Positions 17,847 through 43,689 of a stretch of 52,710 nt of DNA are shown here, piece after piece. The DNA comes from Anaerolineales bacterium. GTDB taxonomy: Bacteria > Chloroflexota > Anaerolineae > Anaerolineales > Villigracilaceae. The translations under genes were made by a program, and so were the position numbers. A model generated the notes under the pieces. It searched no databases. It worked only from the letters and a program-made list of their open reading frames with translations, and was not told the DNA's origin. Every line of letters begins with the position of its first letter. The stretch's first letter is position 1. Location of the stretch: NCBI GenBank assembly GCA_021462845.1, contig JAJTXU010000003.1:1-52710 (forward strand), in the 5' to 3' direction.

Positions 17847-17875
17847 TTGACACAAAAGATTCGCGTGGCTATAAT
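17847..17875 (+). promoter_or_regulatory. Consensus promoter of tRNA-Gly
   Basis: Perfect TTGACA at 17847-17852, a 17-base spacer and perfect TATAAT at 17870-17875, 12 bases before the tRNA 5' end. Confidence 0.92.
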
Positions 17876-17887
17876 TTCGTAAGGTAT

Positions 17888-17959: not shown

Positions 17960-17960
17960 C

Positions 17961-17991
17961 AAATGTCGAGGCAAAAATCCTCGACATTTTT
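17961..17991 (+). terminator. Rho-independent terminator of tRNA-Gly
   Basis: The stem AAATGTCGAGG pairs with CCTCGACATTT around a seven-base loop and ends in five Ts. It isolates the tRNA from the sensor operon downstream. Confidence 0.85.
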
Positions 17992-18069
17992 GTTGGGGAA
18001 TTTGCAAGGTTGCTGTCATGTCATCCCCCAAAGGTAGTATGTAAAATTCAGGCTGGAGGTACACCATTG

Positions 18070-18462
18070 ATGAGCGAGCCAGGCAAGAGTTTGATCCTTT
18101 ACGTGGAAGATAATCCTGAAAATCGAATGCTTGTGAGGCGGGTTTTGTTGGCGGAGAAGTACTCCCTGATCGAAGCCAGCAGCGCCCAGGAAACGTTTGA
18201 AATACTGAAGAGTAAACGCCCTGATCTCATCTTGATGGACATCAATATGCCCGATATGGATGGCTACGCTTTGACGGCAAAGATCAAAGCCATGCAAGGG
18301 TTTGACAACGTTCCGATCCTTGCCATTACCGCCAATGTGATGCGCGGCGACCGCGAAAAAACGCTCGAGGCTGGCTGTGACGGATACATCCAAAAACCGA
18401 TCGATATAGACCAACTGGTTCGAGAAGTAGAAAAGTTCCTTGCGAGGAGAGCACATGCCTGA
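18070..18462 (+). CDS. Single-domain response regulator 1
   Basis: A 130-residue stand-alone receiver domain with no output domain. The acidic pocket is VEDN, the phospho-acceptor Asp57 lies in LILMDINMPDMDGYAL, the switch Thr is in AITANVM and the conserved Lys in YIQKPID. The ATG at 18070 follows a GGAGGT ribosome site; a long upstream frame runs back through the tRNA and is not real. It is the first gene of the operon and overlaps the next by eight bases. The natural phospho-donor is the hybrid kinase at 39778-43551, which is an inference from operon membership. Confidence 0.92.
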   Translation: MSEPGKSLILYVEDNPENRMLVRRVLLAEKYSLIEASSAQETFEILKSKRPDLILMDINMPDMDGYALTAKIKAMQGFDNVPILAITANVMRGDREKTLEAGCDGYIQKPIDIDQLVREVEKFLARRAHA

Positions 18463-18898
18463 AAATGTTTTAGACACCCAACCTATCCGAAAGCCAACGA
18501 TCCCAAAGGATGCGACCGTTCTGGTTGTTGAAGATAACGTTGCAAACTTTGTGCTGATCGCCAGAATGTTGGGGTATCTGGGTATTCATTGCGAATGGAA
18601 AACGTCCGGGTATGAGGTAGTCGAGTATGCCGACACGTTATCCAGGCTGGATCTGATTTTGATGGACATCCGCCTCCCTTACGAGGACGGGTATGGCGCT
18701 TTGAAAAAGATCCGCGCGTCTGAGAAGCTACGTTCGATCCCGATCATTGCCGTCACCGCTGAGGCAAGCACAGATCAAATGAACAAGGCAAAGGATTCCG
18801 GTTTCGATGGTTTCCTCGGAAAGCCGCTCGACCCAGATAAATTTCCTGATCAGATCCGTCGAATTCTAAACGGAGAATCGGTCTGGGAATTTAGTTAG
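18455..18898 (+). CDS. Single-domain response regulator 2
   Basis: A 147-residue receiver with a polar N-terminal extension of about 20 residues. The pocket is VVEDN, the phospho-acceptor Asp71 lies in LILMDIRLPYEDGYGAL, the switch Thr is in AVTAEAS and the Lys in FLGKPLD. The loop after the acceptor reads PYEDG instead of the common PxMDG. There is no output domain. The ATG at 18455 has a GAGGAGAG ribosome site within the end of the first regulator gene, so the pair is translationally linked. Two stand-alone receivers plus two receivers in the hybrid kinase suggest a phosphorelay or a branched output. Confidence 0.92.
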   Translation: MPENVLDTQPIRKPTIPKDATVLVVEDNVANFVLIARMLGYLGIHCEWKTSGYEVVEYADTLSRLDLILMDIRLPYEDGYGALKKIRASEKLRSIPIIAVTAEASTDQMNKAKDSGFDGFLGKPLDPDKFPDQIRRILNGESVWEFS

Positions 18899-18915
18899 AA
18901 AAGCATAGATTTTCA

Positions 18916-21048
18916 ATGAGTCAGAACTCACCGGAAGGAAACGCTTTCTTTTTAACGGCTTATTTTGTTGCCAATGGAGATCGCCTGCAACTCGCCCAAT
19001 TTTCAGATCCACGAACGCGAGAACCGCAGGCGACGATTCCGCGCGGGCACGAATTGTCTGTCCGGGATATTGAAGGTCATCTCACGCGCGGTTTTGTCAG
19101 AGTCGACGGGACAAGCGCGAGATCGTTGCCTGAATCGCTGACTCAATTTAACATGCTTCACTACATCCGCCAGTTTGAGTGCGAGTCTGCCGCGTTCATC
19201 CCCGTGATGCAGGGCGCAGACATGCGCGGTTTGGTGATGATCGGCGCGAGGCCGGGTCAGACCATCAACGATGAGTTGATCGCCTCGTTTCAACGCACAA
19301 TCCAACTGACAACGAAAGTCGTCGCAAAGCCCACAACTCCATCCCAGCCTGAGGATCGCGAGCGCCGCTCTGTCGAAACAAGGGCTTTGAACACGCTTGC
19401 CGCCAACGTGGCGACGATCAGCGACTTAAAGACTCTATACACCTCCATCCACGACCAATTCAGAATCGTCATAGGCGATCATGGATTTGTGATCGCGCTC
19501 TATGACGAGTCGACTAATTCGATCAGCATCCCTTATCTATATGAAGAGGGGCAATTCTCGTCCCTCGACACGTTCCCGCTCGGCGAAGGACTTACGTCCA
19601 TTCTCATCCGCACACGCGAGCCTTTAATGGTAGTTTCAGATACGGAAAAACGGATTATAGCCATGGGGGCGAAAATATCCGGCAAGCCTCCGCGCTCGTG
19701 GATGGGCGTGCCTCTATTGGTGCGCGGAGAAGCCATCGGCGCGCTCATCGTGCAGGATTTGGAAAAAGAATACAGTTTTGACGATGACGACCTGCGATTT
19801 GCCATCGCGGTTGCAAGTCAGATCTCTGGCGCCATCTATAATGTCCGGCTATTGAATGAAAGCCAGCAAATCGTATTGCAATTCGAGACTGCCGCTGAAA
19901 TCGCGCGGGATATCAGCAGTTCGCTGGATTTGGACGAGTTACTACAAAAAGCGGTAGATCTGATTCGGTTACGGTTCAATTTTTATCACGCTTCTGTCTT
20001 TCTAAAGGACATGCCTGGTGAATTTGTCGTGGTGCGCGGGTCCACCGGCGACGCGGGCGCGCAGTTGAAACGAACAAACCACAAACTTGGCGTTGGTTCA
20101 AAATCCATCGTCGGTTTTGTGGCAGGCAAAGGCGAAGTTCTCGTTGTGAACGACACCGCGCGAGACGCCACCTATTACCCGAATCCGGTTTTGCCAGATA
20201 CTCGCGCAGAAGCGGCGATCCCTTTGAAAGTGGCGGATCGCATCCTCGGCGTTCTCGACGTGCAAAGCGAGCGCGCGTATGCATTCGCCAGCGACAATCT
20301 GCGCATCCTGCAAATCCTTGCCGATCAATTGGCAATCGCAGTGATCAACACCGAGTTGTTCTCGGAAACGCAAGAGCATCTCGCGCAGCACCGCCTGCTT
20401 CATCACATCACCACCACCGCGGCATCGGGAACTACGCTGGACGAAGCGCTTTCCTCCGCAGTGAACGGACTGCAAGTGACCCTGGGCGGCGATCGCGTTA
20501 CCATTCTGTTGCTCAACAAAGAAAAGAATACCCTGGAGGTCAAAGCCGCCGTTGGGTATGCTGACGAAATCTACAAACAAGCCATCACGCTCGGAAGCGG
20601 CGTCACCGGTTGGTCAGCCTTACACCGCAAGCCCTTGCGGGTCGCGAATGTCAGGCAAGACTCGCGCTACATTGAAGGCAGTCCAAACACGCAATCTGAA
20701 TTAGCGATACCCCTGCTCTACCGAGGCGAATTGTTGGGCGTTTTGAATGTGGAGAGCGAGCAAACCGGCGCATACACAGAGAACGACGAGGAACTACTCG
20801 GAACATTGGGCGGAAGTCTCGCGGCGATCATCGCCAACGCGCGCCTGATCGAACAAATCCGTTCGCAGGCAGAACGCGAAAGAATCATCTTTGAAATATC
20901 CGACAAAATTCGGCGCACCACAGATATGCAAGCCATCCTCGCGACGACCGCCAGCGAACTCACCCGCGCCGTTGGCGCCACCAGCGCGCGCATCAAACTA
21001 GCGGTCAGCGCCGACGACAAGAAAGACCAGGAAAGTCAGCCGACATGA
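18916..21048 (+). CDS. Sensor A: soluble multi-GAF protein
   Basis: A 710-residue cytoplasmic protein with no membrane segment. The N-terminal 140 residues look GAF-like but degenerate. Three clear GAF domains follow at about 155-315, 335-490 and 505-655. The second carries NPVLPDTRAEAAIPL, the motif shared with the membrane sensors; the first resembles GAF1 of the hybrid kinase (both have a Y-x-GVPLL-type strand). The C-terminal tail AERERIIFEISDKIRRTTD is the end shared by all ten sensors. No kinase, cyclase or chemotaxis domain is present. It follows the two receivers by 17 bases and overlaps sensor B by four. It may act as the cytosolic adaptor between membrane sensors and kinase (inference). 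Confidence 0.88.
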   Translation: MSQNSPEGNAFFLTAYFVANGDRLQLAQFSDPRTREPQATIPRGHELSVRDIEGHLTRGFVRVDGTSARSLPESLTQFNMLHYIRQFECESAAFIPVMQGADMRGLVMIGARPGQTINDELIASFQRTIQLTTKVVAKPTTPSQPEDRERRSVETRALNTLAANVATISDLKTLYTSIHDQFRIVIGDHGFVIALYDESTNSISIPYLYEEGQFSSLDTFPLGEGLTSILIRTREPLMVVSDTEKRIIAMGAKISGKPPRSWMGVPLLVRGEAIGALIVQDLEKEYSFDDDDLRFAIAVASQISGAIYNVRLLNESQQIVLQFETAAEIARDISSSLDLDELLQKAVDLIRLRFNFYHASVFLKDMPGEFVVVRGSTGDAGAQLKRTNHKLGVGSKSIVGFVAGKGEVLVVNDTARDATYYPNPVLPDTRAEAAIPLKVADRILGVLDVQSERAYAFASDNLRILQILADQLAIAVINTELFSETQEHLAQHRLLHHITTTAASGTTLDEALSSAVNGLQVTLGGDRVTILLLNKEKNTLEVKAAVGYADEIYKQAITLGSGVTGWSALHRKPLRVANVRQDSRYIEGSPNTQSELAIPLLYRGELLGVLNVESEQTGAYTENDEELLGTLGGSLAAIIANARLIEQIRSQAERERIIFEISDKIRRTTDMQAILATTASELTRAVGATSARIKLAVSADDKKDQESQPT

Positions 21049-22979
21049 GCGCTTACATTTCTTTTGAGCGTCTCTTTGCCCGACTAGGCGGCTGGCACCT
21101 CGCGCTGATCATCGCGCTCGCGCAAGCGATCGCCATTTTAGGCGCGGCGCCCGGAATAGTTTCGATTCGCGTCAACACCGCCAGCGCCGGAGTGCAACTA
21201 GGCTTTCTTGCCATTCTCGCTCCCGCGCTGATCGTGGTTACTTTTTTGACTTTGCTACTCGTAGGTATAAGGCTGACAACCACGGCCAGAAAAAGACTGG
21301 ATGAAATATCCGGCAAATCATCTACCATCGCGCCGCCTGACGATAAACTTGTCGCATGGCGCGAGTTGACCAGCCTGACAGTTCGCTACGGATTCGCCTC
21401 CGTGTTGATCGCTTTTGTTCTTAGTGTAATCCCGATAACCGCTTTAATTGTGATTTCAGAAAACTCAACCTCGACAAGCGCTTTCAGATCAGGAAATGCG
21501 ATCTCTGCCCTGATGGGCGGAACCGCCGCGGTGTTGGGATACGCCATACTTGCCACTTTTCTCCTGGGCCGCTTCACTCTGCCGTTTCGGCTGTTACTAA
21601 CCCCCGAAGATTTCGAAAGTCAAATGAGGGGCCGCGCGGGAGTATTGGCGCTATCCAAATTCCTTGTCCTGATGTTCGCCGTCATCATCATCAGCATTCT
21701 CATCCTCGCTCCCATCGGCTACCAACAAGCGTCCCGAATCTTATTCATGGAGGATGTCTCGACGACGATCTTCCAGGATCTTCAGATACACACCATTGCC
21801 TTGAGCGTTCTTGTGCTTGCCTTGGGAATCGCAATCGCCTATCTTGCCTCGCGTTCGATCTCAGACCCGGTAACCGATCTTCTCAAAACATTCGACCGCA
21901 TCGAACAAGGCGATCTATCTGCAAGAGCCCCGATCAGCGCAACCGATGAACTGGGAATCGTAATCATCCATTTTAATCGCATGGTGGCGCGGCTCGAATC
22001 CCTGCAAAGCTACCTCGAACAACAGGTGACTGAACGGACAAAACAATTGTCAGCCACCAATGAGATCGGGCGGGTCGCCGCCTCGAGTTTGGATCCCGCA
22101 GAAATGCTCGCAAGCATTGTCAACTTATTCACTGAAAAATTCGGATATTATTTTGTAGGCGTATACCTGCTTGATTCCAGTGAAAAGTGGGCTGAACTCA
22201 AAGAAGCCAGCGGAGAGGCGGGAAAATTGCTTCTAAAAAGCCGGCACCGGACGGATGTTTCAGGAAGTAATCTTGTTGGGCTCGCCATCCGCGACCGGGC
22301 TCCCAAGTCGTATCCGCACACTACAGGCGAAAAGTATCGCGCCAACCTGCCAGTGCTTCCATATACCCGTTCTGAACTCGCGCTTCCGCTACTTGCCAGC
22401 GACAGGGTCATTGGCGCCCTCAACCTTCATTCTGTCCGTGAAACCGACTTTAGCCCAGACGTGGTGAGCACCTTGCAAAATATGGCAAATCAAGTTGCCA
22501 TTGCCCTCGAGAACGCCCGTTTATTTCAAGATGCGCAACAAAATATCCGGGAACTACGCGCGATCCAGAAGCAATACTTGTTCACCGGCTGGAGTGGAAT
22601 CACCAACCAGCCAGAGGAACTGGAATATGGCGTCGGCGATGAGTCAGACGAGAAATCCCGGCAGCTGGAAATCCCCATCAGCCTGCGCGATCAAATCCTG
22701 GGTCAGATCCGGCTCGAAAGCCCGGAGGAATGGACAGCGGAGGAGGAATCGTTGGTCAACGCTGTGGCAACACAAGCCGCAGTGGCTCTCGAAAACGCAC
22801 GTCTGGTGAGCGAGTCGCGGCAGATCGCCTTGCGTGAACGCATGTTATCTGAGATCAACTCAAAAATCTGGGCGTCCACAACAGTGGAAGGCGTTATGCA
22901 AACCGTGGTCAAAGAATTGGGCAGGCGATACGACGCGTCTCGCGCTACCATCGAATTGACGCTGGACAAGTCAGAATAA
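21045..22979 (+). CDS. Sensor B: six-helix membrane protein with HAMP and GAF modules
   Basis: 644 residues. Six hydrophobic helices at about 17-37, 51-75, 113-137, 152-174, 203-224 and 249-269, then HAMP at 266-318 (SDPVTDLLKTFDRIEQGDLS), a coiled coil (LEQQVTERTKQL), GAF at 347-492, a linker with conserved Trp515 (FTGWSGIT), and a second GAF-like module with EEWTAEEESLVNAVATQAAV. It ends in the shared tail ALRERMLSEINSKI. GAF1 here is divergent in the central motif (PVLPYTRSELALPLL). It has no sizeable outside domain, so the stimulus may be membrane-derived or intracellular. It overlaps sensor A by four bases. Confidence 0.88.
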   Translation: MSAYISFERLFARLGGWHLALIIALAQAIAILGAAPGIVSIRVNTASAGVQLGFLAILAPALIVVTFLTLLLVGIRLTTTARKRLDEISGKSSTIAPPDDKLVAWRELTSLTVRYGFASVLIAFVLSVIPITALIVISENSTSTSAFRSGNAISALMGGTAAVLGYAILATFLLGRFTLPFRLLLTPEDFESQMRGRAGVLALSKFLVLMFAVIIISILILAPIGYQQASRILFMEDVSTTIFQDLQIHTIALSVLVLALGIAIAYLASRSISDPVTDLLKTFDRIEQGDLSARAPISATDELGIVIIHFNRMVARLESLQSYLEQQVTERTKQLSATNEIGRVAASSLDPAEMLASIVNLFTEKFGYYFVGVYLLDSSEKWAELKEASGEAGKLLLKSRHRTDVSGSNLVGLAIRDRAPKSYPHTTGEKYRANLPVLPYTRSELALPLLASDRVIGALNLHSVRETDFSPDVVSTLQNMANQVAIALENARLFQDAQQNIRELRAIQKQYLFTGWSGITNQPEELEYGVGDESDEKSRQLEIPISLRDQILGQIRLESPEEWTAEEESLVNAVATQAAVALENARLVSESRQIALRERMLSEINSKIWASTTVEGVMQTVVKELGRRYDASRATIELTLDKSE

Positions 22980-22982
22980 CCC

Positions 22983-24860
22983 ATGGATACGCGACGATAT
23001 CCCACGCTTTTTTCTCGGCTCGCAATTGCGCTCACCCTTCTGGCGGCGCTCTCAACGGCAGTGGTGACTTATTTCTTCTACCTCAATTTCAAAATGGAGC
23101 AACGAGAGAACCTGCGCAAACGGCTGGAGGATATCGCCACGCTGGCCGGGTACCAACAGAACGGAGACGTGTTTGAACAGGTCGCCAACCAGGGCGATGA
23201 ATTCTTTCAACAGATCCATGCGGTAAATTTAAGGATCAAACAATCAGACCCCGATCTGGCGTTCGTTTACACCATGAGGAAATCCGGAGATACCATTTCC
23301 TTCGTCGTCGATGCGGGCGCGCCCGGCGAGCCGGACATTTCTGCGTATGGCGATATTTACCTGGAGCCCAGCGAAACTCTCATCGCCAGTTTTGACAGCA
23401 TGTCCGGCACGGTAGTAGAACGGGAAATTTACACAGATGAATTCGGGTCTTTTCTATCCGCCTACACGCCGATCTACACGACCGATAAAAGAGTCGTCGG
23501 GGCGCTCGGCGTGGATATCTCCGCAACGACTATCCTTCAGAATGAAGTGACATTTCGCAACAAACTGATCGTCATCAATATCATCGCCTACATAGCCATT
23601 ATATTTACAGGGTTTTTGATCGCAAATTACCTCTCCAAGCCGATCATCGAGTTAAAGGACGCCGCAAACCGTATCAGTAAGGGTGATTTTTCCAACAAGA
23701 TTTACAACATTCCCCATACCCGCGAATTAGCCGAACTTGCAACGAACTTCAACGCGATGACCGAGAACTTGAACAGGCTGATCACCGACCTTGAACGCCT
23801 GGTAGCGGAACGGACCGAGGTAATCACTCGCAGGACCGACCAACTCCGCGCCGCCTCGTATATCGCGCGACAAGCCGCCGATTTACAGGATTTGCCGCGT
23901 TTATTAAACACCTTTGTTCAACTTGTCTCCGATCAATTCGGCTACTATCATACGGGAATTTATTTAGTCAACGACTCCGGGGAGGAACTCACTTTGCGCT
24001 CCGCCTCGTCTGAAGGCGGAAAACGCATGCTGAAACAGGAACGCTCTGTAAAACACAACATGCAAGGCGTTATCAATTATGTGACCCAAACAAAAAAACC
24101 GAAAATTATCGCCGACGTCGGCGCGGATGCCACCGTTTTCAACAATCCCGATCTACCTTTGACGCGTTCGGAGATCGCAGTGCCGCTCCTCATACGAGGT
24201 CGCTTGTTGGGTGTTTTGGATATTCACTCCGATAAGCCGTCCGCATTCGCGGCGCAAGATATGGATGTCTTCGAGACCCTTGCCGACCAATTGGCGGTTG
24301 CGATCGACAATGCGCGCCTGCTGGAAGAATCGCAGGCGGCGTTGACGCAGTTGGAATCGATCACAGCATCACGGACTCATGATGCATGGGATCAAAAACT
24401 AAAGGGGAAACCTAAGGTCGTAACCTATACTCCGCTTGGCATGCGCGCTGAAAAACCCGCCGATGCGGATTTAAGGGAGGGCGTTCAAATTCCGGTCACT
24501 TTACGAGGGCAAAAGATCGGCAAGATCACGCTTGCAAAAAAGGATACCGCGCCATTAAATCAACAGGATCGAGAGATGATCGACGAAGTCGCGACCCAGG
24601 CCGGTCTGGCGATCGAAAACATTCGCCTGTTGGAAGACGCCACTGCGCGAGCAAAACAGGAGCAACTTGTTGGCGGTCTTGCTTTCCGGTTTAGCCAGGC
24701 GCTTGATGTCGATTCTCTCCTTCAAACCGCTACCCGCGAACTCGGACAAATCCCCGGAGTAGAAGAAGCAACCATTGTGCTCGTGCAACAACAGCCCGAA
24801 CAGGATGCGCAACAGCGTCCAGCGGCAAACAGGCATACGGCGCGAAAGAACGTGTCATGA
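22983..24860 (+). CDS. Sensor C: extracellular Cache-like domain, HAMP, GAF
   Basis: 625 residues. Membrane helix at 13-34, an outside domain at 35-192 with Cache/PAS-like strands (SDPDLAFVYTMRKSGDT, FLSAYTPIYTTDKRVVGALG), helix at 195-215, HAMP at 215-267, a coiled coil, and GAF at about 302-450 with FNNPDLPLTRSEIAVPL. A linker with Trp469 (DAWDQK) and a weaker second module (LNQQDREMIDEVATQAGLA) follow. The shared tail is less well conserved here (KQEQLVGGLAFRFSQALD). It starts three bases after sensor B and overlaps sensor D by four. Confidence 0.88.
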   Translation: MDTRRYPTLFSRLAIALTLLAALSTAVVTYFFYLNFKMEQRENLRKRLEDIATLAGYQQNGDVFEQVANQGDEFFQQIHAVNLRIKQSDPDLAFVYTMRKSGDTISFVVDAGAPGEPDISAYGDIYLEPSETLIASFDSMSGTVVEREIYTDEFGSFLSAYTPIYTTDKRVVGALGVDISATTILQNEVTFRNKLIVINIIAYIAIIFTGFLIANYLSKPIIELKDAANRISKGDFSNKIYNIPHTRELAELATNFNAMTENLNRLITDLERLVAERTEVITRRTDQLRAASYIARQAADLQDLPRLLNTFVQLVSDQFGYYHTGIYLVNDSGEELTLRSASSEGGKRMLKQERSVKHNMQGVINYVTQTKKPKIIADVGADATVFNNPDLPLTRSEIAVPLLIRGRLLGVLDIHSDKPSAFAAQDMDVFETLADQLAVAIDNARLLEESQAALTQLESITASRTHDAWDQKLKGKPKVVTYTPLGMRAEKPADADLREGVQIPVTLRGQKIGKITLAKKDTAPLNQQDREMIDEVATQAGLAIENIRLLEDATARAKQEQLVGGLAFRFSQALDVDSLLQTATRELGQIPGVEEATIVLVQQQPEQDAQQRPAANRHTARKNVS

Positions 24861-27034: not shown

Positions 27035-27061
27035 GCGCTGTCTCCCATCGCTTCGATTTCT

Positions 27062-28432
27062 ATGGATAACCTTTCCAAACACCCTTCTCGATCAAATACC
27101 CTGCGGTATACCATACTAGGCGCCGGGGTTGGTTTCCTATTTCCGGTCACAGCCACGATCCTTCGCTTCGCGAACCTCGATCAGTCATTTTCGTTCGAAG
27201 CCATTCGGTTGTTGCACTCCACAGAGCCGCTCTTATGGATCATCGATAGCGCGCCGTTATTTTTGGGTGTCTTTGCCGCAATTGCCGGTATCCGCCAGGA
27301 TCGCCTCGCTGTTCTAAACCAGGAAATACGCCAAAAAAATCTGGAACTTGAACGATCACAAACCGCCCTCGAACAACGAACACACGAACGCACGCTCGCG
27401 CTTGAAAAACAATCGGAAGGATTTCGGTTTGTCGCCAATGCGGCTCGGCGGATCGCATTGGCGCAGGATGTCGATTCTCTGCTCCGTGAAGTCATCGGAT
27501 TGGTTAGCGCGGAATTTGCAAATTATCGATCCGCGATCTATCTGCTCGACAGCGAACTAAATTCAGATATCTTAACCCTGGCAGCCACGGACAGTCCTCA
27601 ACAAAATGAACGCATCCTTGCGGATACCAACACCGTCGTTGGAACCACCGCGCTCCTGGGAGAAACGCGCGTCATCTCGGACGCGGCAACGGATAGCGCG
27701 CATCTTGAAGAGGTCGGCCGCCCGGCAACCGGCTCGGAACTGTCCATTCCCTTGCAGGTCAGTGAAAAAATCATCGGCGTTCTGTATATTCAAAGCCCGC
27801 ATAAATATGCCTTCGGCGAGGAGGAAGTCGATCTCTTAACCGCGCTTGCAAACCAGGTAGCCGCCGGAATCAATACCACCAAACTCTACAATGAAGCGAA
27901 AACTTCACTCGCAGAATCGCAGGCAATGATCGAGCAATATGTTCATCTGGAGTGGAAAAACTTCAACCGGGCGGTTGAGCAAACCGGTTTCATATTCGAC
28001 GGGAGGCAGGTAACGCCCCTGAACGGACAGGTTAGGTTTGCGCGCGAAAAATCGATCGTTCAAACCGGCGGTCTTTCGCTGGACAAAAAATCAGCCAACG
28101 TGACCGTTCCCATCAAACTTCGCGGGCTGACAATCGGCATACTGGAAGTTCGACCGAAAAAAGGAAAACGGGAATGGACGGAAGACGAGTTGTCCCTGCT
28201 CGAAGCCGCTGCCGACCGCGCCGCATTTGCTCTTGAAAACGCGCGCCTGGTGAACGGCGCGCAACGGCGCGCATCGCGAGAGCGGGCGATCGGCGAGATC
28301 GCCAACAAGATCGGAGCCGTCAGCGATCGCAACACAATCCTCCAGACAGCCGTGGAGGAACTTGGCAGAAGGATCGGTAATGCCGAGGTCACCATTGAAT
28401 TGGAAAGCAACACTGAAGCGATCAAGCGTTAA
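27062..28432 (+). CDS. Sensor E: two-helix membrane protein with GAF modules
   Basis: 456 residues, the shortest of the set. Two membrane helices at about 16-36 and 56-77, with almost no outside domain and no HAMP. A coiled coil (LERSQTALEQRTHERTLALE) precedes a GAF at about 135-280 with GSELSIPLQVSEKIIGVLY. Linker Trp298 (LEWKNFN) is followed by the second module with REWTEDELSLLEAAADRAAF and the tail ASRERAIGEIANKIGAVSD. The missing sensory ectodomain suggests it reports an intracellular or membrane signal. Confidence 0.87.
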   Translation: MDNLSKHPSRSNTLRYTILGAGVGFLFPVTATILRFANLDQSFSFEAIRLLHSTEPLLWIIDSAPLFLGVFAAIAGIRQDRLAVLNQEIRQKNLELERSQTALEQRTHERTLALEKQSEGFRFVANAARRIALAQDVDSLLREVIGLVSAEFANYRSAIYLLDSELNSDILTLAATDSPQQNERILADTNTVVGTTALLGETRVISDAATDSAHLEEVGRPATGSELSIPLQVSEKIIGVLYIQSPHKYAFGEEEVDLLTALANQVAAGINTTKLYNEAKTSLAESQAMIEQYVHLEWKNFNRAVEQTGFIFDGRQVTPLNGQVRFAREKSIVQTGGLSLDKKSANVTVPIKLRGLTIGILEVRPKKGKREWTEDELSLLEAAADRAAFALENARLVNGAQRRASRERAIGEIANKIGAVSDRNTILQTAVEELGRRIGNAEVTIELESNTEAIKR

Positions 28433-28443
28433 AAGGCGCAGTC

Positions 28444-30168: not shown

Positions 30169-30183
30169 AAGACGAGCGTATCT

Positions 30184-34430: not shown

Positions 34431-34460
34431 TTCCGAAGCCGAACATGGATTCATGACAGA

Positions 34461-36797
34461 ATGAAAAGAATCATCCCCGCAATCACCAACTGGTTTTTGA
34501 ACCTCACGTATCCGCGCAAGTTCAACGTGATTACCGTGATCTTTCTGCTTCCGATCATTGCGTTCATTCCTGTAATCCGCAACCAGACGGAACGGATAGA
34601 CCGTTATGGAACCCATGAACTCTTCGGAACCATCTACCTCCGCTCATTGTGGAACCTCACGGACGCCATTCAACAACATCAGGTTGTCAGTTTGCATTAC
34701 CTACACGGCGAAGCCGAATTCGCCGAAGTACAGGCGGCGCAAGAACTGGTTGACGCCAAATTTGAAAATTATGAATTCGTCCAAAGCCAGGAATTCCTAT
34801 CCACCGAATTTCGCGCCGAAGAAGACGCGATCCAAGCGCTTTGGACGGTTGTGAAAGATTCTGTCCGAGACGGTTCTCCGGAGGAGATACTTACTTCGCA
34901 CAGCAAGATACTTGATGAAATCAACCTGCTTGTGTCTCGGGTGGGCGACTATTCGTACCTGATCCTCGACCCCGACCTGGACACCTATTACACAATGGAT
35001 GCGGTGCTGTTGAATCTACCGCACAACCAGGGTTTGCTGACTGAAGCGCGCACGATCATTAACTCATACGGCGATGGAGGAGCGCTAACGAGCGACGACC
35101 AGTTCCGTTTGCGAATCCTTTCTGAAACGCTGGCAAGCAATCTCGCAAAGATGGATAGAAACATAAACGTTGCCGTTCAGAATACTTCAACTTCAGAAAT
35201 CACATCCCTCAGTTCTGCGTTAATTGAATACCACACAGCCATTGCCGCCGTGACCGACACGCTCAACAGGCTTGGCTCCACTCCCCAACTCTCGGAGAGC
35301 GCCCTCAGGGATGCAAATGAAACATTAGATACGGCTCGGGGCGCAAGCCTATCGTTCTATGACGCCAGCTCAGAAGGCTTGCAAAAGGGAGTGGAGGCTC
35401 GTATCAGCTCGCTCGTCTTTCAATTTTACGTGATCGCCCTCGTGGCGCTCGTCAGTGTTGCTGGCGCATTCCTGCTCGGGCAGAACATCATGGCTTCTAT
35501 CAGCAAGCCGCTCTTCCAACTGGCAGAAACTTCCCAGAAGATCGCCATGGGAGACCTGTCTGCGCGTGTATCGGCAGAATCAGGCGATGAACTCGGCAAA
35601 GTTGCGAATGCGTTCAATAAAATGGCAGGTGAGTTGGAAGCCGATAAAGCCGCCATTGTTTCTCGTTCACGCGAATTAGAAGCCGCAAACCTGATAAGCA
35701 CACAAAGAGCGCAGGATTTGCAATCGATTGGCGAAATTTCGAAGGTGATCACAAGCGAGCATAAACTCGATATCCTTCTACCGTTGATCGCCAATCTGGT
35801 GAGCGAAAAGTTTAACTTTTATCACATCGGCATCTTCCTCCTGGATGACCGCAATGAATACGTCGTGCTCGAAGCGAGTAACAGCGAAGGCGGAAGAAAG
35901 ATGCTGAACCGCGCGCACCGCTTGCACTTGGGAGCAGGAATCGTTGGATACGTTGCCGCCACAAGCCTGCCTCGCATCGCTCTTGACGTTGGGGCGGATT
36001 CAGTTTTCTTCAACAACCCCGACCTGCCTCAAACACGCTCAGAAATGGCTGTGCCGCTTCGCGTGGCAGAGATCACAATCGGAGTGCTGGATGTGCAAAG
36101 TATCGAACCCAACGCATTCAACGATGATGACATTTCCACGCTCGCCACACTCGCCGACCAGGTCGCCATCGCCATTCAAAACTCGCGGAATTTCGAAACC
36201 GCCCAACGGTTGATCGAACACGCCCAAAAGACCACCGGGCTTGTGATGAAAGAATCCTGGCAATCGATCAAATCGCAAAGCCACCTGTCCCCTTACCACA
36301 CATCGTCAGACAGTTCCCGAAAAGATGCCCAGATCGCGCCCGAGGTTCTTGAAAAAATCAGAGCAGATCGCAAGCCGGTGGTGCTGGGAGGAAAAAATTC
36401 CCAACTCGCTGTTCCAATTCAACTGTCCAACAATATCGTTGGGGTTTTAAACATCCGGTTGCCTGAAAACCACACCCCGGATCAGGATGAGATCGACATT
36501 GCCCAAGCCGTAGGCGACCGCCTGTCTCTGGCTCTCGAATCCACAACTTTGCTTGAAGCGGCGCAAAGACGCGCCGAATATGAGCGCATAACTTCAGACA
36601 TTTCGACGAAGATCGGAGCCTCCACGCGATTTGAATCAATATTGCGAACCGCCGCAGAGGAACTGAGTCAAGCGCTCGGCGGGTCGGAAGTGCTTGTTCA
36701 GATCCAACCGTCAGCCGCAGGCGCAAATTCTGACAATGGCGATACCAGCGACGCTCGTTTGCTCATGCAGAAGACCGGAAATAGTCATGAAAAATAG
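34461..36797 (+). CDS. Sensor I: helical-bundle outside domain, HAMP, GAF
   Basis: 778 residues. Membrane helix at 22-40, an all-helical outside region (41-315) containing YLILDPDLDTYYTMDAVLLN, a segment known from four-helix-type receptors, then a membrane helix at about 318-340 and HAMP at 340-392 (KPLFQLAETSQKIAMGDLS). GAF at about 430-590 has SVFFNNPDLPQTRSEMAVPL. Linker Trp600 (KESWQSIK), a second module with DQDEIDIAQAVGDRLSLALE and the tail AEYERITSDISTKIGASTR follow. Its 3' end overlaps the start of sensor J by 11 bases. Confidence 0.9.
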   Translation: MKRIIPAITNWFLNLTYPRKFNVITVIFLLPIIAFIPVIRNQTERIDRYGTHELFGTIYLRSLWNLTDAIQQHQVVSLHYLHGEAEFAEVQAAQELVDAKFENYEFVQSQEFLSTEFRAEEDAIQALWTVVKDSVRDGSPEEILTSHSKILDEINLLVSRVGDYSYLILDPDLDTYYTMDAVLLNLPHNQGLLTEARTIINSYGDGGALTSDDQFRLRILSETLASNLAKMDRNINVAVQNTSTSEITSLSSALIEYHTAIAAVTDTLNRLGSTPQLSESALRDANETLDTARGASLSFYDASSEGLQKGVEARISSLVFQFYVIALVALVSVAGAFLLGQNIMASISKPLFQLAETSQKIAMGDLSARVSAESGDELGKVANAFNKMAGELEADKAAIVSRSRELEAANLISTQRAQDLQSIGEISKVITSEHKLDILLPLIANLVSEKFNFYHIGIFLLDDRNEYVVLEASNSEGGRKMLNRAHRLHLGAGIVGYVAATSLPRIALDVGADSVFFNNPDLPQTRSEMAVPLRVAEITIGVLDVQSIEPNAFNDDDISTLATLADQVAIAIQNSRNFETAQRLIEHAQKTTGLVMKESWQSIKSQSHLSPYHTSSDSSRKDAQIAPEVLEKIRADRKPVVLGGKNSQLAVPIQLSNNIVGVLNIRLPENHTPDQDEIDIAQAVGDRLSLALESTTLLEAAQRRAEYERITSDISTKIGASTRFESILRTAAEELSQALGGSEVLVQIQPSAAGANSDNGDTSDARLLMQKTGNSHEK

Positions 36798-39009
36798 AAC
36801 CTCACCACCAAGAGTATCACGCAGTCTGACGACGACTTTAGCGCTTAGTTTTTTAGGCTTAAGCGTCCTGGTCTTATTCCTCTCCACCGCCACGCAACTT
36901 GCGCTCACTGTACAAACCCAGCAAAGTGAATTGGAGGAAAGGCAGTTGCTCCTCGCTGAGAGCGCGGGTTCGAGTGTGAGTGATTTTATCGAGAAAAAAT
37001 TCGATGCGCTGATAGCCGCCGCCAGCCTTTCAGAGCCTCTTGAAGCATCGCCGTCAGAACAGACCTCCATTCTGGATAGACTCCTCAGCCTGGAACCGGC
37101 GTTTAGGCAGATTGCCCTTCTAGACCAACAAGGACAGCAAGTTAAATCCTCGTCTCGTGTGTCAATAACGCTTTCACCCCAATTCGAAGATCAAATTAAA
37201 CAGGGAGTAGCGACGCTGCCTCAAGCCTCGGACCGGTATTTGAGCGAAGTGTATGTGGACGAAGATACGATCGAGCCGCTAATCGCCCTTGCGATACCCA
37301 TCAAAACCGGCTCGGGAAGCAATGCGGGATACATGGTTGCCGAAGTAAACTTGAAATTCATTTGGGACCTTGTCGGTTCATTACGAGTAGGCGATACGGG
37401 CTATGCATATGTTGTAGATAGTCACGGAGATTTGATCGCCTACAGAGACACCAGCGCGGTCTTGCAAGGCTTAAACGTCAGCAATGTTGGAAACTTGAGC
37501 GATTTCGTGAAAGACCCCACCATAACTTCAAGCCAGACGTCCGGCGTACAGCAATATGTTGGGCTTGGCGGTCAAACTGTTGTTGGCACCTATGTTCCGC
37601 TACAGCCGCTTCAATGGGCAGTTGTGATCGAGTTACCCTGGCGCGAGGCATATCAGAATGTTTTTGCCCTGGGAATCCGCTCTCTTGTCCTATTTCTGGT
37701 TATCGCCGTTCTGGCTGGGCTTTTCGGATACTTCAGCGCGCAACGCGCCTCTGCCCCGCTCGTTGAGCTTTCACACGTCGCAACCGAAATCGCAAGCGGC
37801 AACCTGCGCGCGCAAGCCAAAGAAGCTGGCGCCACTGAACTTGCGCATCTTGCAAACTCCTTCAACAACATGACCGCCCAACTGCGCGAGTCGTTTGCAA
37901 CCCTCGAGCAACGTGTCGCCGACCGCACGACAGCCCTCGAAGCCTCGCGCGTTGAAAGCGAAAAACGGGCAAAAGACCTGCTTGCGATCAGTGAAATTTC
38001 TCGCATCATCAACGTGGAGAAAAACCCCGAAATCCTCCTCCCCTTGATCACCCGTCTCGTCAGTGAGAAGTTCAACTTTTATCATGTCGGCATCTTCCTG
38101 CTTGATGATGCAAAGAAATCCGCCATCCTCCAAGCCACAAACAGTGAAGGTGGTCAACGCATGTTACTTCGGGGACATGCGCTGGCTCTCGGGCAGGGTA
38201 TCGTAGGAAACGTTGCCCTGGAAGGAAACCCACGCATCGCCCTCGACGTGGGAGATGATGCCGTTTTCTTCAACAATCCCGACCTCCCATCCACGCGTTC
38301 CGAGATGGCTCTTCCTATGAAGATACGCGAACAGGTCATCGGCGTGTTAGATGTGCAAAGCCAAAACCGGGGTGAATTCACAGCGGATGATCTCAATATC
38401 CTTGGTACCCTCGCCAGCCAGGTTTCGGTTGCGATTGAAAATGCCAGGCTGTTTGCAAAGACAGAACAAGCGTTGGCTGAAGTGCAAGGTCTTTACAACC
38501 AATATCTGCAAAAAGAATGGAAAAATTTGCGCGTACGCCCCGGAGATATTGGTTACCGGCAATCACCCACCGGCGGCGCGCCTCTTAAGATCCCGCTGGA
38601 GTTCCCTGAACTGCAAACCTCGGAAGGGGTGGGAAGACTCCAGGTGCGGCAGGCAAGCAACCCGGAGGAGGAATCGTCCATCCTTGCGCCGATTAATCTG
38701 CGCGGTCAGGTTATCGGAGCGATGAGCATCAAATCTCCCGCCAAAGATCGAGCGTGGACCCAGGACGAGATCAACCTCATCCAAGCGGTAACCGACCGCC
38801 TGGCAGTCGCGCTCGAAAATGCCCGCCTGTTCGAGGAAACCACCCGGCGCGCAGAGCGGGAACGGTTAGTCTCTGAAATCACCGGCAAAATCCGCAGTGT
38901 GAACGATCCGCAAACCATGATCCAAATGGCGGCGGATGAACTGCGCAACATCCTTGGAACAAATCGCGTCCAAGTCATCTCCAAATCGTCAAACGACAAT
39001 GGGCAATAA
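36787..39009 (+). CDS. Sensor J: dCache_1-type outside domain, HAMP, GAF
   Basis: 740 residues from the ATG at 36787; a longer in-frame start inside sensor I was rejected. Membrane helix at about 17-40, a double-Cache domain at 45-290 with SLRVGDTGYAYVVDSHGDLI and TYVPLQPLQWAVVIELP, the distal-strand pattern of dCache_1, then a helix at 296-316, HAMP at 318-370 and the coiled coil LEQRVADRTTAL. GAF at about 412-565 has DAVFFNNPDLPSTRSEMALP. Trp578 (KEWKNLR), a second module with RAWTQDEINLIQAVTDRLAV and the tail AERERLVSEITGKIRSVND follow. This is the sensor closest in its second module to the consensus of the set, and the last before ParA. Confidence 0.9.
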   Translation: MKNRTSPPRVSRSLTTTLALSFLGLSVLVLFLSTATQLALTVQTQQSELEERQLLLAESAGSSVSDFIEKKFDALIAAASLSEPLEASPSEQTSILDRLLSLEPAFRQIALLDQQGQQVKSSSRVSITLSPQFEDQIKQGVATLPQASDRYLSEVYVDEDTIEPLIALAIPIKTGSGSNAGYMVAEVNLKFIWDLVGSLRVGDTGYAYVVDSHGDLIAYRDTSAVLQGLNVSNVGNLSDFVKDPTITSSQTSGVQQYVGLGGQTVVGTYVPLQPLQWAVVIELPWREAYQNVFALGIRSLVLFLVIAVLAGLFGYFSAQRASAPLVELSHVATEIASGNLRAQAKEAGATELAHLANSFNNMTAQLRESFATLEQRVADRTTALEASRVESEKRAKDLLAISEISRIINVEKNPEILLPLITRLVSEKFNFYHVGIFLLDDAKKSAILQATNSEGGQRMLLRGHALALGQGIVGNVALEGNPRIALDVGDDAVFFNNPDLPSTRSEMALPMKIREQVIGVLDVQSQNRGEFTADDLNILGTLASQVSVAIENARLFAKTEQALAEVQGLYNQYLQKEWKNLRVRPGDIGYRQSPTGGAPLKIPLEFPELQTSEGVGRLQVRQASNPEEESSILAPINLRGQVIGAMSIKSPAKDRAWTQDEINLIQAVTDRLAVALENARLFEETTRRAERERLVSEITGKIRSVNDPQTMIQMAADELRNILGTNRVQVISKSSNDNGQ

Positions 39010-39026
39010 GACCCTGAGGTAATCAC

Positions 39027-39812
39027 ATGGCACATATTATGGCAATTTCAAATGAAAAAGGCGGCGTCGCCAAGACCACAACTACGCTCTCCCTCGGCGC
39101 GGCGCTTGCCGAATTAAATCACCGGGTTTTGTTGATCGACCTGGACCCGCAGGCGAACCTAAGCCTGGCTCTTGGGCTGGAGACCGGCGAAGCGGAGACC
39201 ACTTCGGCGAACGTGTTGATCGAAAACACGCCCTTGAGCGTCGCAATCAGAAAAACAGACATCCCACACCTTGATCTGGTTTCCTCCAATTCGCGCATCG
39301 AAAGCGCAGAGCAATACCTGCCCATGAGGAGCAACTACCTCACCACCCTGCGCTCTGCTGTTCAACTCGTCGAAACTTCATACGACTACATCCTCCTCGA
39401 TTGCCCGCCAGCCTTGGGAGCAATCACCCTAAACGCCCTCTCTGCCGCCAACCTGCTCATCATTCCCACTCAGGCTGAATATTTTTCCGCATACGCCCTC
39501 CGCAACATGATGGGCTCCATCCGCCGCGTGAGGCAGGAAACCAACCCAAACCTTGCATACCGCATCCTCGTCACGTTGTTAGACCGCCGCAATCGCACGC
39601 ACCGCAACATCTTCGAACAACTGCAAACAACCTTCGGACAAGGCGTCTTCACGAGCGTGATCGAGATCGACACCAAACTCAGAGAAAGCCCCATAGCGGG
39701 GATGCCTATCACGCAATATCGTCCCACCAGTCGAGGCTCGCAACAATATCGGATCCTTGCCCAGGAGTTAATTGAGTATGTCAAAGAAGAAGCCAGTCGA
39801 CAAACGGCTTAA
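39027..39812 (+). CDS. ParA/Soj-family ATPase without a ParB partner
   Basis: A 261-residue ParA-type ATPase. The deviant Walker A is EKGGVAKTTT with signature Lys11 and Lys16; LLIDLDPQANLS is the A' motif and YDYILLDCPPALGAITLNAL the Walker B region. Such proteins form dynamic dimers on nucleoid DNA and position cargo. No ParB, parS-like repeats, replication genes or plasmid functions are nearby, and the gene is embedded between the last sensor (17-base gap) and the hybrid kinase (its 3' end overlaps the kinase start by 35 bases). The context therefore resembles orphan ParA proteins that place chemoreceptor arrays (ParC/PpfA type), not chromosome partition. That role is an inference. Confidence 0.92.
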   Translation: MAHIMAISNEKGGVAKTTTTLSLGAALAELNHRVLLIDLDPQANLSLALGLETGEAETTSANVLIENTPLSVAIRKTDIPHLDLVSSNSRIESAEQYLPMRSNYLTTLRSAVQLVETSYDYILLDCPPALGAITLNALSAANLLIIPTQAEYFSAYALRNMMGSIRRVRQETNPNLAYRILVTLLDRRNRTHRNIFEQLQTTFGQGVFTSVIEIDTKLRESPIAGMPITQYRPTSRGSQQYRILAQELIEYVKEEASRQTA

Positions 39813-42800
39813 GAAGCTATTCACCGGGCTTGAACCGGAGAAGACAACTTCCAATCCACAGGAAGCGTCGCGCAGAGCCTCCTCCGCAAAGAAGGATGCT
39901 CCGCCTCCCCCCTCCGTTACGCCTGAGCCGCCCGTCCCAGCCTTAACCACGCCTGTGGCGCCAACAGCCGCGCCAATCCGCGCGCAAGCCAGCGAGCAGG
40001 ATATTTCCCTCGCTTTCGACACAGGACACAGCACATGGGCAACTTTGCAGGTATATAACGAAGCCGAAAAACCCACTTGGGACCCGGAAGAGGAACTCCT
40101 CGTCCGCCAGGTGACGGATCAACTTTCGTTGGCGCTACAAAACGCGCAACTGTTTCAGGAAACACAGGCACGCGCCGAAGAATTGGCGGTTCTCAACGAA
40201 GTAGGAAAGGCGCTCACCGGCGCGTTAAGCATCGAACAGATCACTGAAATTACCTATCGCGGTATATCACGCCTGTTTGATGCAAGAAACTTCTACATTG
40301 CCTTTTACGAACAAGAGACAAACGAGATCGTCTTTCCTCATAATGTGAGCGAATCGGTGATAGACAGCTCGATCACGCGCATCCCATTAAGTCGCGGATT
40401 CACGGGGCACATGATTCGCACAAAAGAAAGCATTTTGGTCGGCAATGGAACCGACGCCTGGTTACGAGAACATGGAGAAACTCTCATGGGAGAGCCAGCC
40501 ATGTCATATTTAGGCGTGCCGCTCCTCACGGGCGATACTGTGCTAGGCGCCATTGCCATCCAGGATTATCACACTCCAAATAAATACAACGAACACGACC
40601 TCCGATTGTTAACTTCGTTCGCCAGCCAGACGGCGATCGCCATTCAAAATGCAAAACTCTTCGAGGAAACCCGCCGCCGCGTGGAAGATACCGCCCGCCT
40701 AAACCGGCTGGTTACAGAATTATCAGAATCGCTGGATTTGGAAAAAAACCTTCAATCCATCTCCAACGAGATTGCGGATATCACCTCCGCCCTGCACGTA
40801 GGCATTGCGCTAATCGACAAGGAAGCGAACCAGCTTGTCGTCATGGCAGACGCGCCAGCAGTAGATGGAAAAGGCGGTATCGGGATTCGTTTACCTATTC
40901 AGGGAAACCCAACCGCCGAACAAGTGATTTCAACTCGAAAGCCGTTATTCATCAACGATACGCTGAACAACCCTCTGACCGCCCACATTCGAGACGTGAT
41001 GGCTGAGCGCGGCACGCAGAGCCTGTTCGTCTGGCCTCTCATCGTTGGTAAAGATTTGATCGGCACATTGGGTATCGATTTTGCCGATCCGCGTCAACGC
41101 ATTCCAGATCACGATCTCGCCCTGATCGAAGCCATTCTCACCCAGGTTCAGACCACCGTCCAAAACTCGACCCTTTTCGGAAACACACAAAAAAATGCGG
41201 AGGAGTTACGCGTTCTTTTTTCCGCCATGCAGGATGTGGTGCTCGTGATCGATCGGGATACGCGCTACACGCGTATTGCGCCTACGAACCCGTCGCGCCT
41301 CTTTCGTCCGCCTGAGCAATTGCTGGGTCAACGCATGGACGTAATCCTTCCCCCGGAAACCCACATACCTTTCAGGCAGGCGATCCACCAAGCGCTGGAC
41401 ACGAATAGCGTCGTCCAGATCGAATATCAGTTACCTGCCGAGGGTCAAGATTATTGGTTTCTCGCGAATATTTCAAAATTGAATGAGAATGAAGTGTTCT
41501 GGGTGGCGCGCGACATCACCGAGCGCAAAAAATCCGAGGAAGCCCTGCAACGTAGAACCGCCTATCTGGCAATCTCATCCGAGATTGGGAGAATCGTAAC
41601 ATCCACGCTTGACCTTGATACGATCTTTAAGAAGGCTGTGGAACGTATCAGCGAAGGCTTCGACTTCTATTTCACCGGCATATACAGCGTGGAAGAAACC
41701 GGATTCAACGCAAGCTTGAAAGGCGCCACAGGGAGCGCGGGGGAGAAATTATTGGAAGATCGCCACACCATTGTAGTTGGCTCCAAATCCATTATTGGAG
41801 CCGTGGCAGAAACGGGCAAATACAAATTGGTAGACGATGTGACGGCAGAGCCGCTCTTTCAACCCAGCCCCTACCTCCCAGAGACTCGCTCCGAACTGGC
41901 GATTCCACTAAGGATCGGTCAGCGCACGGTGGGCGTCATCGACATCCAATCGAAGCAGACTCACGCCTTCACTGAGGACGACATCTCCGTTCTGCAATCG
42001 TTGGGCGATCAGGTTGCGGTGGCGATCGATAATGCCCGCTCTTACGAGCTATCACAGCAACTCATCAAAGACCTGCGCGAAGTGGACAAATTGAAGAGTC
42101 AATTCCTCGCCAATATGAGCCACGAATTACGCACGCCGCTGAACTCCATCATCGGTTTCTCGCGCGTGATCCTAAAAGGGATCGATGGTCCGATCACAGA
42201 TATGCAACAGCAAGACCTCTCTGCCATCTACAACTCGGGGCAACACCTGCTTGGGTTGATCAACGATGTGCTCGATCTTGCCCGCATCGAAGCAGGCAAG
42301 ATGGAATTGAACTTTGAAGAAGTGAACCTGGCAGACATGGTGACGAGCGTGCTTTCCACGGCGAAAGGTCTCGTCAAAGAAAAACCGATTCAACTTGTGC
42401 AGAAAGTCGCGTCCGGCATGCCAACCGTACGAGGCGACGCGATGCGCATCCGCCAGGTGCTCATCAACCTGCTATCGAATGCCGCCAAATTCACCGACGA
42501 AGGTTCGATCACCGTGGAGGCCGTCACGCAACGAAGCCCGGCGGGGAACATGGAAGCGCTCATCAAAGTGATCGACACGGGCCCCGGCATTTCCATCGAA
42601 GATCAGGAGAAATTGTTCAAGGCGTTTTCACAAGTGGACGGATCGGCAACACGGAAAACAGGCGGCTCCGGGCTGGGGTTGTCCATTTGCGCCAACCTCG
42701 TGCAATTGCATGGCGGGCGCATCGGCGTTCAAAGCGATGCGAACGCGGGCTCGGCATTTTGGTTCACCGTTCCGTTATTCCACCAGCCGCTGAACACGAT

Positions 42801-43551
42801 ACCGTTCGACCGGAAAATCATCCTCGCCGTCGATGATGACCCGCAAGTGATCGGTCTGTATGAGCGCTATCTGACTCCACAGGGATATCACGTCGTCGCG
42901 TTGACCGACCCCGCTCTCGCCAAACAACGCATACTCGATATCAAGCCATTTGCCGTGACGCTCGATATCATGATGCCCGAAATGGACGGCTGGGCGATTC
43001 TTACCGACTTAAAATCTGATCCTGCCACCCGCGATTATCCCATTATCGTCTGCTCGATCCTCGAGCAAGCCAATAAGGGATTCAGCCTCGGCGCAACGGA
43101 CTACCTAATCAAGCCGATCCTTGAGGAAGATCTGGTCCACGCGCTCACCCGATTGGACAAGGATGGCACGATCAAGGAAATTCTCGTTATCGACGACGAC
43201 CCGAACGACTTGCGCCTGATGGAAAAGATACTTACCGAGCAGGGTCACTACAAGGTCACTCTGGCGGAAGGCGGGCGAAAAGGCTGGGAGGCAATCGTAA
43301 CGACAGCGCCGGAAGCGATCATCCTCGACATCTTCATGCCAGATATCGACGGGTTCACTATTCTCGAAAAACTGGCGGAGAATCCTTCGTTCCGCAATAT
43401 TCCCGTGCTTGTGGTGAGCGGGGGCGGCTTAACCAACGAGCAACTCAACCAATTAAAGGATTTCGGAAAGCGTCTGCTCACCAAGGCTTCATTCAAAGAA
43501 GGCGAGTTGATCACGACAATCGAGCAGGCGTTGAGTCGCGCCGTTTCATAA
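39778..43551 (+). CDS. Hybrid histidine kinase of the sensor operon (GAF-GAF-PAS-GAF-HisKA-HATPase-REC-REC)
   Basis: A soluble 1257-residue kinase with no membrane segment. Domains in order: a Pro-rich flexible N-terminus (to about 75), a half GAF-like module (75-125, PTWDPEEELLVRQVTDQLSL) matching the sensors' second module, GAF (145-297), GAF (315-465), PAS (478-590), GAF (605-755) with PYLPETRSELAIPL, HisKA with His782 in MSHELRTPLNS, and HATPase with LINLLSNAAKFT, DTGPGIS and GGSGLGLSI. Two receivers follow: Asp1063 (TLDIMMPEMDG) and Asp1184 (ILDIFMPDIDG), each with a conserved Lys. The ATG at 39778 is used; a TTG six bases earlier is possible. This is the only kinase in the operon, so it is the likely common output of the ten sensors. 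Confidence 0.93.
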   Translation: MSKKKPVDKRLKKLFTGLEPEKTTSNPQEASRRASSAKKDAPPPPSVTPEPPVPALTTPVAPTAAPIRAQASEQDISLAFDTGHSTWATLQVYNEAEKPTWDPEEELLVRQVTDQLSLALQNAQLFQETQARAEELAVLNEVGKALTGALSIEQITEITYRGISRLFDARNFYIAFYEQETNEIVFPHNVSESVIDSSITRIPLSRGFTGHMIRTKESILVGNGTDAWLREHGETLMGEPAMSYLGVPLLTGDTVLGAIAIQDYHTPNKYNEHDLRLLTSFASQTAIAIQNAKLFEETRRRVEDTARLNRLVTELSESLDLEKNLQSISNEIADITSALHVGIALIDKEANQLVVMADAPAVDGKGGIGIRLPIQGNPTAEQVISTRKPLFINDTLNNPLTAHIRDVMAERGTQSLFVWPLIVGKDLIGTLGIDFADPRQRIPDHDLALIEAILTQVQTTVQNSTLFGNTQKNAEELRVLFSAMQDVVLVIDRDTRYTRIAPTNPSRLFRPPEQLLGQRMDVILPPETHIPFRQAIHQALDTNSVVQIEYQLPAEGQDYWFLANISKLNENEVFWVARDITERKKSEEALQRRTAYLAISSEIGRIVTSTLDLDTIFKKAVERISEGFDFYFTGIYSVEETGFNASLKGATGSAGEKLLEDRHTIVVGSKSIIGAVAETGKYKLVDDVTAEPLFQPSPYLPETRSELAIPLRIGQRTVGVIDIQSKQTHAFTEDDISVLQSLGDQVAVAIDNARSYELSQQLIKDLREVDKLKSQFLANMSHELRTPLNSIIGFSRVILKGIDGPITDMQQQDLSAIYNSGQHLLGLINDVLDLARIEAGKMELNFEEVNLADMVTSVLSTAKGLVKEKPIQLVQKVASGMPTVRGDAMRIRQVLINLLSNAAKFTDEGSITVEAVTQRSPAGNMEALIKVIDTGPGISIEDQEKLFKAFSQVDGSATRKTGGSGLGLSICANLVQLHGGRIGVQSDANAGSAFWFTVPLFHQPLNTIPFDRKIILAVDDDPQVIGLYERYLTPQGYHVVALTDPALAKQRILDIKPFAVTLDIMMPEMDGWAILTDLKSDPATRDYPIIVCSILEQANKGFSLGATDYLIKPILEEDLVHALTRLDKDGTIKEILVIDDDPNDLRLMEKILTEQGHYKVTLAEGGRKGWEAIVTTAPEAIILDIFMPDIDGFTILEKLAENPSFRNIPVLVVSGGGLTNEQLNQLKDFGKRLLTKASFKEGELITTIEQALSRAVS

Positions 43552-43689
43552 GCGAGATTTCCGAGTAAAATAGCCTGCCTCATAAGGGAAAATGCTCAGT
43601 GTCGTTTAAGCGCTCCACAAAACGCATCTAACGCGGAAGAATATCCCTGAGTAAACCTATATCAACCATCAACAGGATTATAGATTTCA

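Follow-up and report, generated by a model that had tools for sequence, protein, structure and literature searches.

Output-less GAF sensors, a ParA-family ATPase and a single hybrid histidine kinase form a conserved gene cluster in Anaerolineales

The window, by which we mean the whole stretch of 52,710 nucleotides that was analyzed, comes from an Anaerolineales bacterium of the Villigracilaceae (GCA_021462845.1, JAJTXU010000003.1, positions 1-52,710). It represents one entire contig (C223) of a 4.17-Mb genome that is spread over 362 contigs and has a completeness of 94.6%. Between positions 18070 and 43551, the window carries 14 genes that all lie on the + strand with a widest intergenic gap of 30 bases (Table 1). 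These genes encode two stand-alone receivers, ten GAF proteins (nine in the membrane and one soluble), a ParA ATPase, and a soluble hybrid histidine kinase, the gene of which overlaps that of ParA by 35 bases. A first-pass annotation of the sequence had already described this tight spacing, the nine membrane and one soluble GAF proteins with their differing inputs, and the presence of only one kinase, which it took to be soluble. Gene mapping, Pfam searches, and hydropathy bore out each of these points. The starts of the second receiver and the tenth sensor are probably the ATG codons at 18455 and 36787, respectively.

Table 1. Features of the cluster in the window, with periplasmic binding proteins from clusters of related genomes in the last row
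Feature	Coordinates	Strand	Basis
Stand-alone receiver 1, 130 aa	18070..18462	+	Response_reg E 2e-29
Stand-alone receiver 2, 147 aa	18455..18898	+	Response_reg E 6e-21 on 18440-18898; gene-caller ATG start
Soluble protein: GAF x3, C-terminal half-GAF stub	18916..21048	+	Pfam, sequence, hydropathy
Membrane sensor: multi-helix input, HAMP, GAF, C-terminal stub	21045..22979	+	
Membrane sensor: HAMP, GAF, stub	22983..24860	+	
Membrane sensor: dCache_3, HAMP, GAF, stub	24857..27034	+	
Membrane sensor: short input, GAF, stub	27062..28432	+	
Membrane sensor: multi-helix input, GAF, stub	28444..30168	+	
Membrane sensor: multi-helix input, GAF, stub	30184..31902	+	
Membrane sensor: dCache_1, HAMP, GAF, stub	31899..34430	+	
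Membrane sensor: input without Pfam match, HAMP, GAF, stub	34461..36797	+	
Tenth sensor, membrane: dCache_1, HAMP, GAF, compact GAF, stub	36787..39009	+	
ParA ATPase, Walker A KGGVAKTT	39027..39812	+	AAA_31 E 6e-50
Soluble hybrid histidine kinase	39778..43551	+	Pfam; no predicted membrane helix
Candidate ParA-binding peptide, kinase residues 1-20	39778..39837	+	Motif in ParA-adjacent kinases
Kinase N-terminal half GAF, residues about 76-135	40003..40182	+	GAF profile positions 120-178 of 179
Threonine-synthase-like PLP enzyme fused to receiver	43690..45351	+	PALP E 4e-62, Response_reg E 1e-18
Periplasmic binding proteins of relatives	L017:3815-4783; L154:14073-15029; L176:15665-16678; L177:8777-9964		

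The operon had initially been closed at 43551. This end probably does not hold: the gene for an enzyme-receiver fusion starts 138 bases after the kinase gene, and the operon probably runs on into it. Scans for promoters and terminators covered two stretches only, 17700-19200 and 38900-46600. Promoter-like sites numbered 3 against 1.0 expected in the first of these stretches and 5 against 5.3 expected in the second, and terminators were fewer than expected in both. A perfect sigma-70 consensus promoter at 17847-17875 lies directly ahead of a tRNA-Gly gene (17888-17960), with the operon farther downstream, and it likely serves the tRNA. A second promoter-like site near the operon start, at 18018-18047, matches the consensus at 9/12 positions. 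Elsewhere in the window, 8816-12386 on the - strand holds ABC transporter genes, two of them for permease components and another for a family 3 binding protein.

The ten GAF proteins combine diverse inputs with a lack of recognizable outputs. At a Pfam threshold of E up to 0.001, GAF was found in 10/10, HAMP in 6/10, and dCache in 3/10, while HisKA, HATPase, GGDEF, EAL, and MCP domains were found in none, as the first-pass annotation had proposed. A simple hydropathy count predicts no membrane helix in the first GAF protein and one to six in each of the other nine. When 34 full-length sensors (the window's ten and 24 from seven named loci) were screened at E up to 0.01, no Pfam output domain was found; the remaining matches were inputs, GAF, HAMP, or weak stray ones. 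Similarly, a profile of the window's kinase matched none of 527 sensors encoded upstream of ParA in the window and related genomes. The sensors of relatives have from 0 to 9 or more predicted membrane helices, and their inputs differ while the layout is constant. In addition, four of five small genes tested inside relatives' clusters encode periplasmic binding proteins, and those among the sensor genes include NMT1/THI5-like and Peripla_BP_6 types. It is possible that these proteins feed ligands to the sensors.

Conservation of gene order in relatives had been named at the outset as a check on the reading of these genes as a split sensory array, and that reading passes it. We fetched stretches of 88 further genomes and mapped their genes with profiles built from the window. 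With the window and a second cluster of the host genome, on contig C330, they make up 90 sequence sets, of which 88 contain ParA (the G052 and C330 sets do not); the 88 maps thus represent the window and 87 genomes. Stub-bearing sensors lie just upstream of ParA in 84/88 maps, and the kinase gene starts within the ParA gene in 82/88, with an overlap of 29-47 bases. The layout is therefore more than chance. At least 527 sensors precede ParA in these neighborhoods, a lower bound because stretches and contigs end; the kinases of 60 single-stretch genomes are likewise cut at the stretch end. Genes are closely packed, with a median gap of 10 bases and 357 of 381 gaps at most 60 bases. Zero sensors were counted in four maps (G039, G146, G168, and G170), and in the case of G039 this is because the map took another place; ParA, a sensor with the stub, and a protein with the basic peptide are all present at its real cluster.

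ParA orthologues occur in 47 of the 61 nearest genomes, the host's own included, and in 123/152 family genomes (78/88 of those of good quality), where ParA is single-copy at the family-search cut-off in all but one genome. They were also found in 82/151 sampled genomes of the order and, at E 1e-65, in 30/400 sampled genomes of the phylum, 28 of them within the order. The gene order, with one kinase following ParA and sensors that lack outputs, recurs in the family and in eight other families of the order (f2, f4, f7, f8, f11, f12, f13, and f14), in some only partially. Finally, in one genome from outside the order but within the class (L277), the gene after ParA encodes a protein that combines the basic peptide with a proline-rich linker and a GAF domain; the piece examined ends before the kinase core.

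What the sensors share is their C-terminal end. All ten sensors of the window finish in a segment such as RERAIGEI..KI......IL.TA..ELG..LG...V.I.L, and this stub was matched at the C-terminus of 521/527 sensors upstream of ParA in the 88 maps, the remaining 6 having no match. Against a GAF profile built from 283 complete domains, the stubs correspond to about positions 2-54 of 179. The kinase carries a GAF fragment as well. Its order is a basic N-terminal peptide, a proline-rich linker, a half GAF, three GAF domains, PAS, HisKA, HATPase, and two receivers, and no HPt domain occurs among the cluster's Pfam hits. In 74/82 ParA-overlapping kinases, a GAF piece before residue 170 (a single piece in 64 of the 74) runs from profile position 102-143 to the profile end. 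The sensors thus carry the beginning of a GAF domain and the kinase its end, while neither has the middle. Furthermore, the kinase piece ends in a helix that is more conserved than its counterparts in other GAFs of these kinases, with a mean top-residue frequency of 0.85 across 48 kinases chosen without a motif filter, against 0.52 for the same helix in the first other GAF of those kinases and 0.59 in the last within the fetched stretch. An earlier measure (0.92 versus 0.64) was dropped as biased, the rows having been picked by motif.

Structure models suggest that the stub and the kinase half GAF are each incomplete on their own. Modeled alone, neither the half GAF (10 sequences in the alignment) nor the last segment of the stub (35 sequences) formed strands. 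In a model of kinase residues 1-321, residues 17-99 fall below pLDDT 50, conserved strands are unfolded, and a long helix begins at 103. The C-terminus of the tenth sensor, for which the closest solved structures are GAF domains, was modeled as a full GAF, a compact GAF, and a long helix into the stub with no strand at the end. We accordingly set aside the idea that the stub folds back on the sensor's own compact GAF, noting that the alignment is shallow.

An attractive extension would be that stub and half GAF complete one domain between two proteins. We have downgraded this strict version. By eye, kinases of G042, G056, G059, and G060, from other families, have extra sequence before the half GAF that partly resembles the sensors' compact GAF, and the C330 kinase has similar extra sequence. 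Sensors of these families keep the stub all the same, and the two halves therefore do not have to make up one domain. The fetched reading frames yielded no natural fusion of the stub with the half GAF of the kinase; the best matches there that span both halves (up to 43 bits) are the sensors' own compact GAFs. Coevolution between stub and half GAF was also undetected, with mutual information of 0.068 versus 0.069 for a stub-ParA control in a test made weak by about 32 effective genomes; one of 54 kinase columns stood out (z 2.9). Given the extra kinase sequence and mutual information no higher than the control, we claim likely docking through the stub and not the completion of one domain. The presence of the stub in 521/527 sensors is the appearance expected of a common docking part, and on sequence grounds the sensors likely dock on the kinase through it.

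Two other accounts of the stub deserve consideration. The first helices of GAF domains are their usual dimer contacts, and the stub could be an end cap for mixed receptor oligomers, with the kinase reading the cluster indirectly, perhaps via its full GAFs. The stubs persist even when extra sequence precedes the half in the kinase GAF, which fits this idea, as do the dimer contacts, yet a different reason would then be needed for the strong conservation of the N-terminal helix in the kinase, and we consider the end cap unlikely. Alternatively, the sensors could act on one another or on several kinases, the operon kinase being one client and the gene order reflecting co-regulation only. The genome does hold 157 matches to the kinase in other stretches, and the undetected coevolution is in keeping with this account. 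However, in 82/88 maps a kinase gene follows the sensors and overlaps that of ParA, and hardly any stubs were seen outside such clusters in the fetched stretches: they were found in 7/29 GAF proteins beyond the mapped clusters, of which C330, the paralogous cluster, has three, G039 two, and G126 two. We judge this account to be about as improbable as the end cap, and favor docking on the operon's own kinase.

The N-terminus of that kinase suggests a link to ParA. The pattern M(P/S)KK....KRLDKLF is present in 80/82 ParA-overlapping kinases and in 1/30 other kinases of the fetched stretches, the exception being the kinase of the paralogous cluster. The two ParA-adjacent kinases without it are G059, clearly, and G051, under the strict pattern only. 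A long linker without predicted structure follows the peptide. Among the database matches listed, the named records that match the N-terminal part together with the core come from Anaerolineales, Anaerolineaceae, and Chloroflexi bacteria, and most of the other 80 loci, from many phyla, are similar mainly to the core and receivers. ParA itself carries the Walker A sequence KGGVAKTT in 85/88 maps and KGGVGKTT in 2. Passages in two papers give a positively charged disordered N-terminus as the known or presumed means by which the partners of ParA/MinD ATPases work, and TlpT, the suggested partner of the chemoreceptor-cluster ATPase PpfA, is among them (PMC10241942, PMC7993993). Given that the kinase has a basic disordered N-terminus as these known partners do, we infer by analogy that it is the partner of ParA. 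It could instead be argued that this ParA positions nothing and is a nucleotide switch, or a segregation-type protein that happens to be co-transcribed, since its closest solved structures are ParA/Soj segregation proteins. The recurrent overlap with the kinase start, together with the basic peptide and long linker, speaks against such a role, which we regard as the least probable of the alternatives considered here.

Downstream of the kinase, the fusion gene provides a candidate output. It encodes a PLP enzyme that is closest to threonine synthase, with NCBIfam matches for that name below cut-off, joined to a receiver. In 23 maps where both genes were called, the window included, the distance from kinase to fusion is -11 to 138 bases, and the fusion lies on the same strand downstream within 14 kb for 70/89 ParA copies. 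Among 151 genomes of the order, ParA occurs in 82, the fusion in 86, and both in 77 (Fisher p 4e-26, without correction for relatedness), leaving nine genomes with the fusion and no ParA and five with the reverse. The pattern is similar outside the host's family, where 44 of 111 genomes have ParA, 47 the fusion, and 40 both. The C330 cluster (L009/L010, G000, 14000-40000) likewise contains three stub sensors, a soluble kinase with a basic N-terminus, and an enzyme-receiver fusion that is 49% identical to the copy at 43690-45351, in addition to two receivers and a further PLP enzyme. No ParA was found in the fetched C330 piece; in G157, G051, G550, and G052, ParA lies near the second copy. The enzyme-receiver fusion is the probable output of the system.

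The first-pass annotation had read the operon as a split array in which many receptors feed one kinase. The conserved layout and the common stub support this reading in part, the docking of sensor on kinase being a step that we infer. The N-terminus of the kinase, with its likeness to ParA partners, and the receiver-bearing enzyme downstream are additions to it. Our preferred version, to which we give slightly better than even odds (a probability of roughly 0.55), is a trans-acting receptor array with stubs docking on one kinase, positioning by ParA, and receivers, including that of the enzyme, taking the phosphate. Specifically, nine membrane receptors and one soluble receptor, each with its own input, would send a signal down HAMP and GAF helices into the common stub. 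The stubs would dock near the N-terminus of the kinase, on its half (or compact) GAF and the long helix, setting its autophosphorylation. ParA would bind the basic peptide, and its ATPase cycle on the nucleoid would gather or space kinase-receptor clusters. The receivers of the kinase itself would then take phosphate, as would both stand-alone receivers and the one fused to the threonine-synthase-like enzyme, and outside signals would thereby be tied to a step of amino-acid metabolism.

A more ambitious proposal is that the cluster represents a way to pool inputs unrelated to chemosensory arrays and stressosomes, in which interchangeable receptors without kinases plug a half GAF into a shared HisKA hybrid kinase, ParA positions the assembly via the kinase's N-terminal tail, and direct phospho-control of the threonine-synthase-like enzyme is part of the output. 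We put this forward tentatively, at somewhat less than even odds. Should the array work as proposed, a large group of bacteria, most of them uncultured, would possess an independent many-to-one solution in which receptors are swappable, ParA serves as a tether, and a metabolic enzyme is targeted directly. The array would also offer a clean test of receptor-kinase coupling in trans.

In the usual picture of two-component signaling, each kinase has one sensor; among many-to-one arrangements, that of MCP, CheW, and CheA is the best known. The gene content of the cluster, with many receptors, one kinase, and stand-alone receivers, fits that of chemosensory arrays. A ParA-family ATPase in the operon is a further likeness, chemosensory operons with the positioning ATPase ParC/PpfA being described in a passage of PMC10241942. 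In contrast to chemosensory arrays, the sensors have no MCP signaling domain (0/34), the kinase is a HisKA/HATPase/receiver hybrid and not CheA, and no CheW occurs among the cluster's Pfam hits. Moreover, the MCP signaling domain had no match in the 94.6% complete host genome, while 7/14 control genomes were positive, and we therefore rejected a chemotaxis reading.

Hybrid two-component systems share the kinase core (HisKA, HATPase) and receivers with the cluster, but they join sensor and kinase in one chain. Here, the ten sensors are separate polypeptides, none of them fused to a kinase, and the kinase keeps its own GAF and PAS domains beside them. In the stressosome, which has a STAS-domain sensor scaffold and an RsbT-type kinase, many variable sensors feed one switch, much as proposed here, yet the cluster differs in that no STAS domain was hit in its 14 genes (Pfam). 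The systems McdAB, PpfA-TlpT, and PomXZ resemble it in that a deviant Walker A ATPase adjoins a protein with a basic disordered N-terminus. Unlike in those systems, the candidate partner is itself a histidine kinase. The earlier impression that no system with this layout had been described agrees with our literature search, in which no description of such a cluster was found among the matches listed. Known families supply the parts, and their arrangement appears undescribed in the literature searched. We view the cluster as a new form of two-component signaling; a separate class of receptor array would be the bolder reading.
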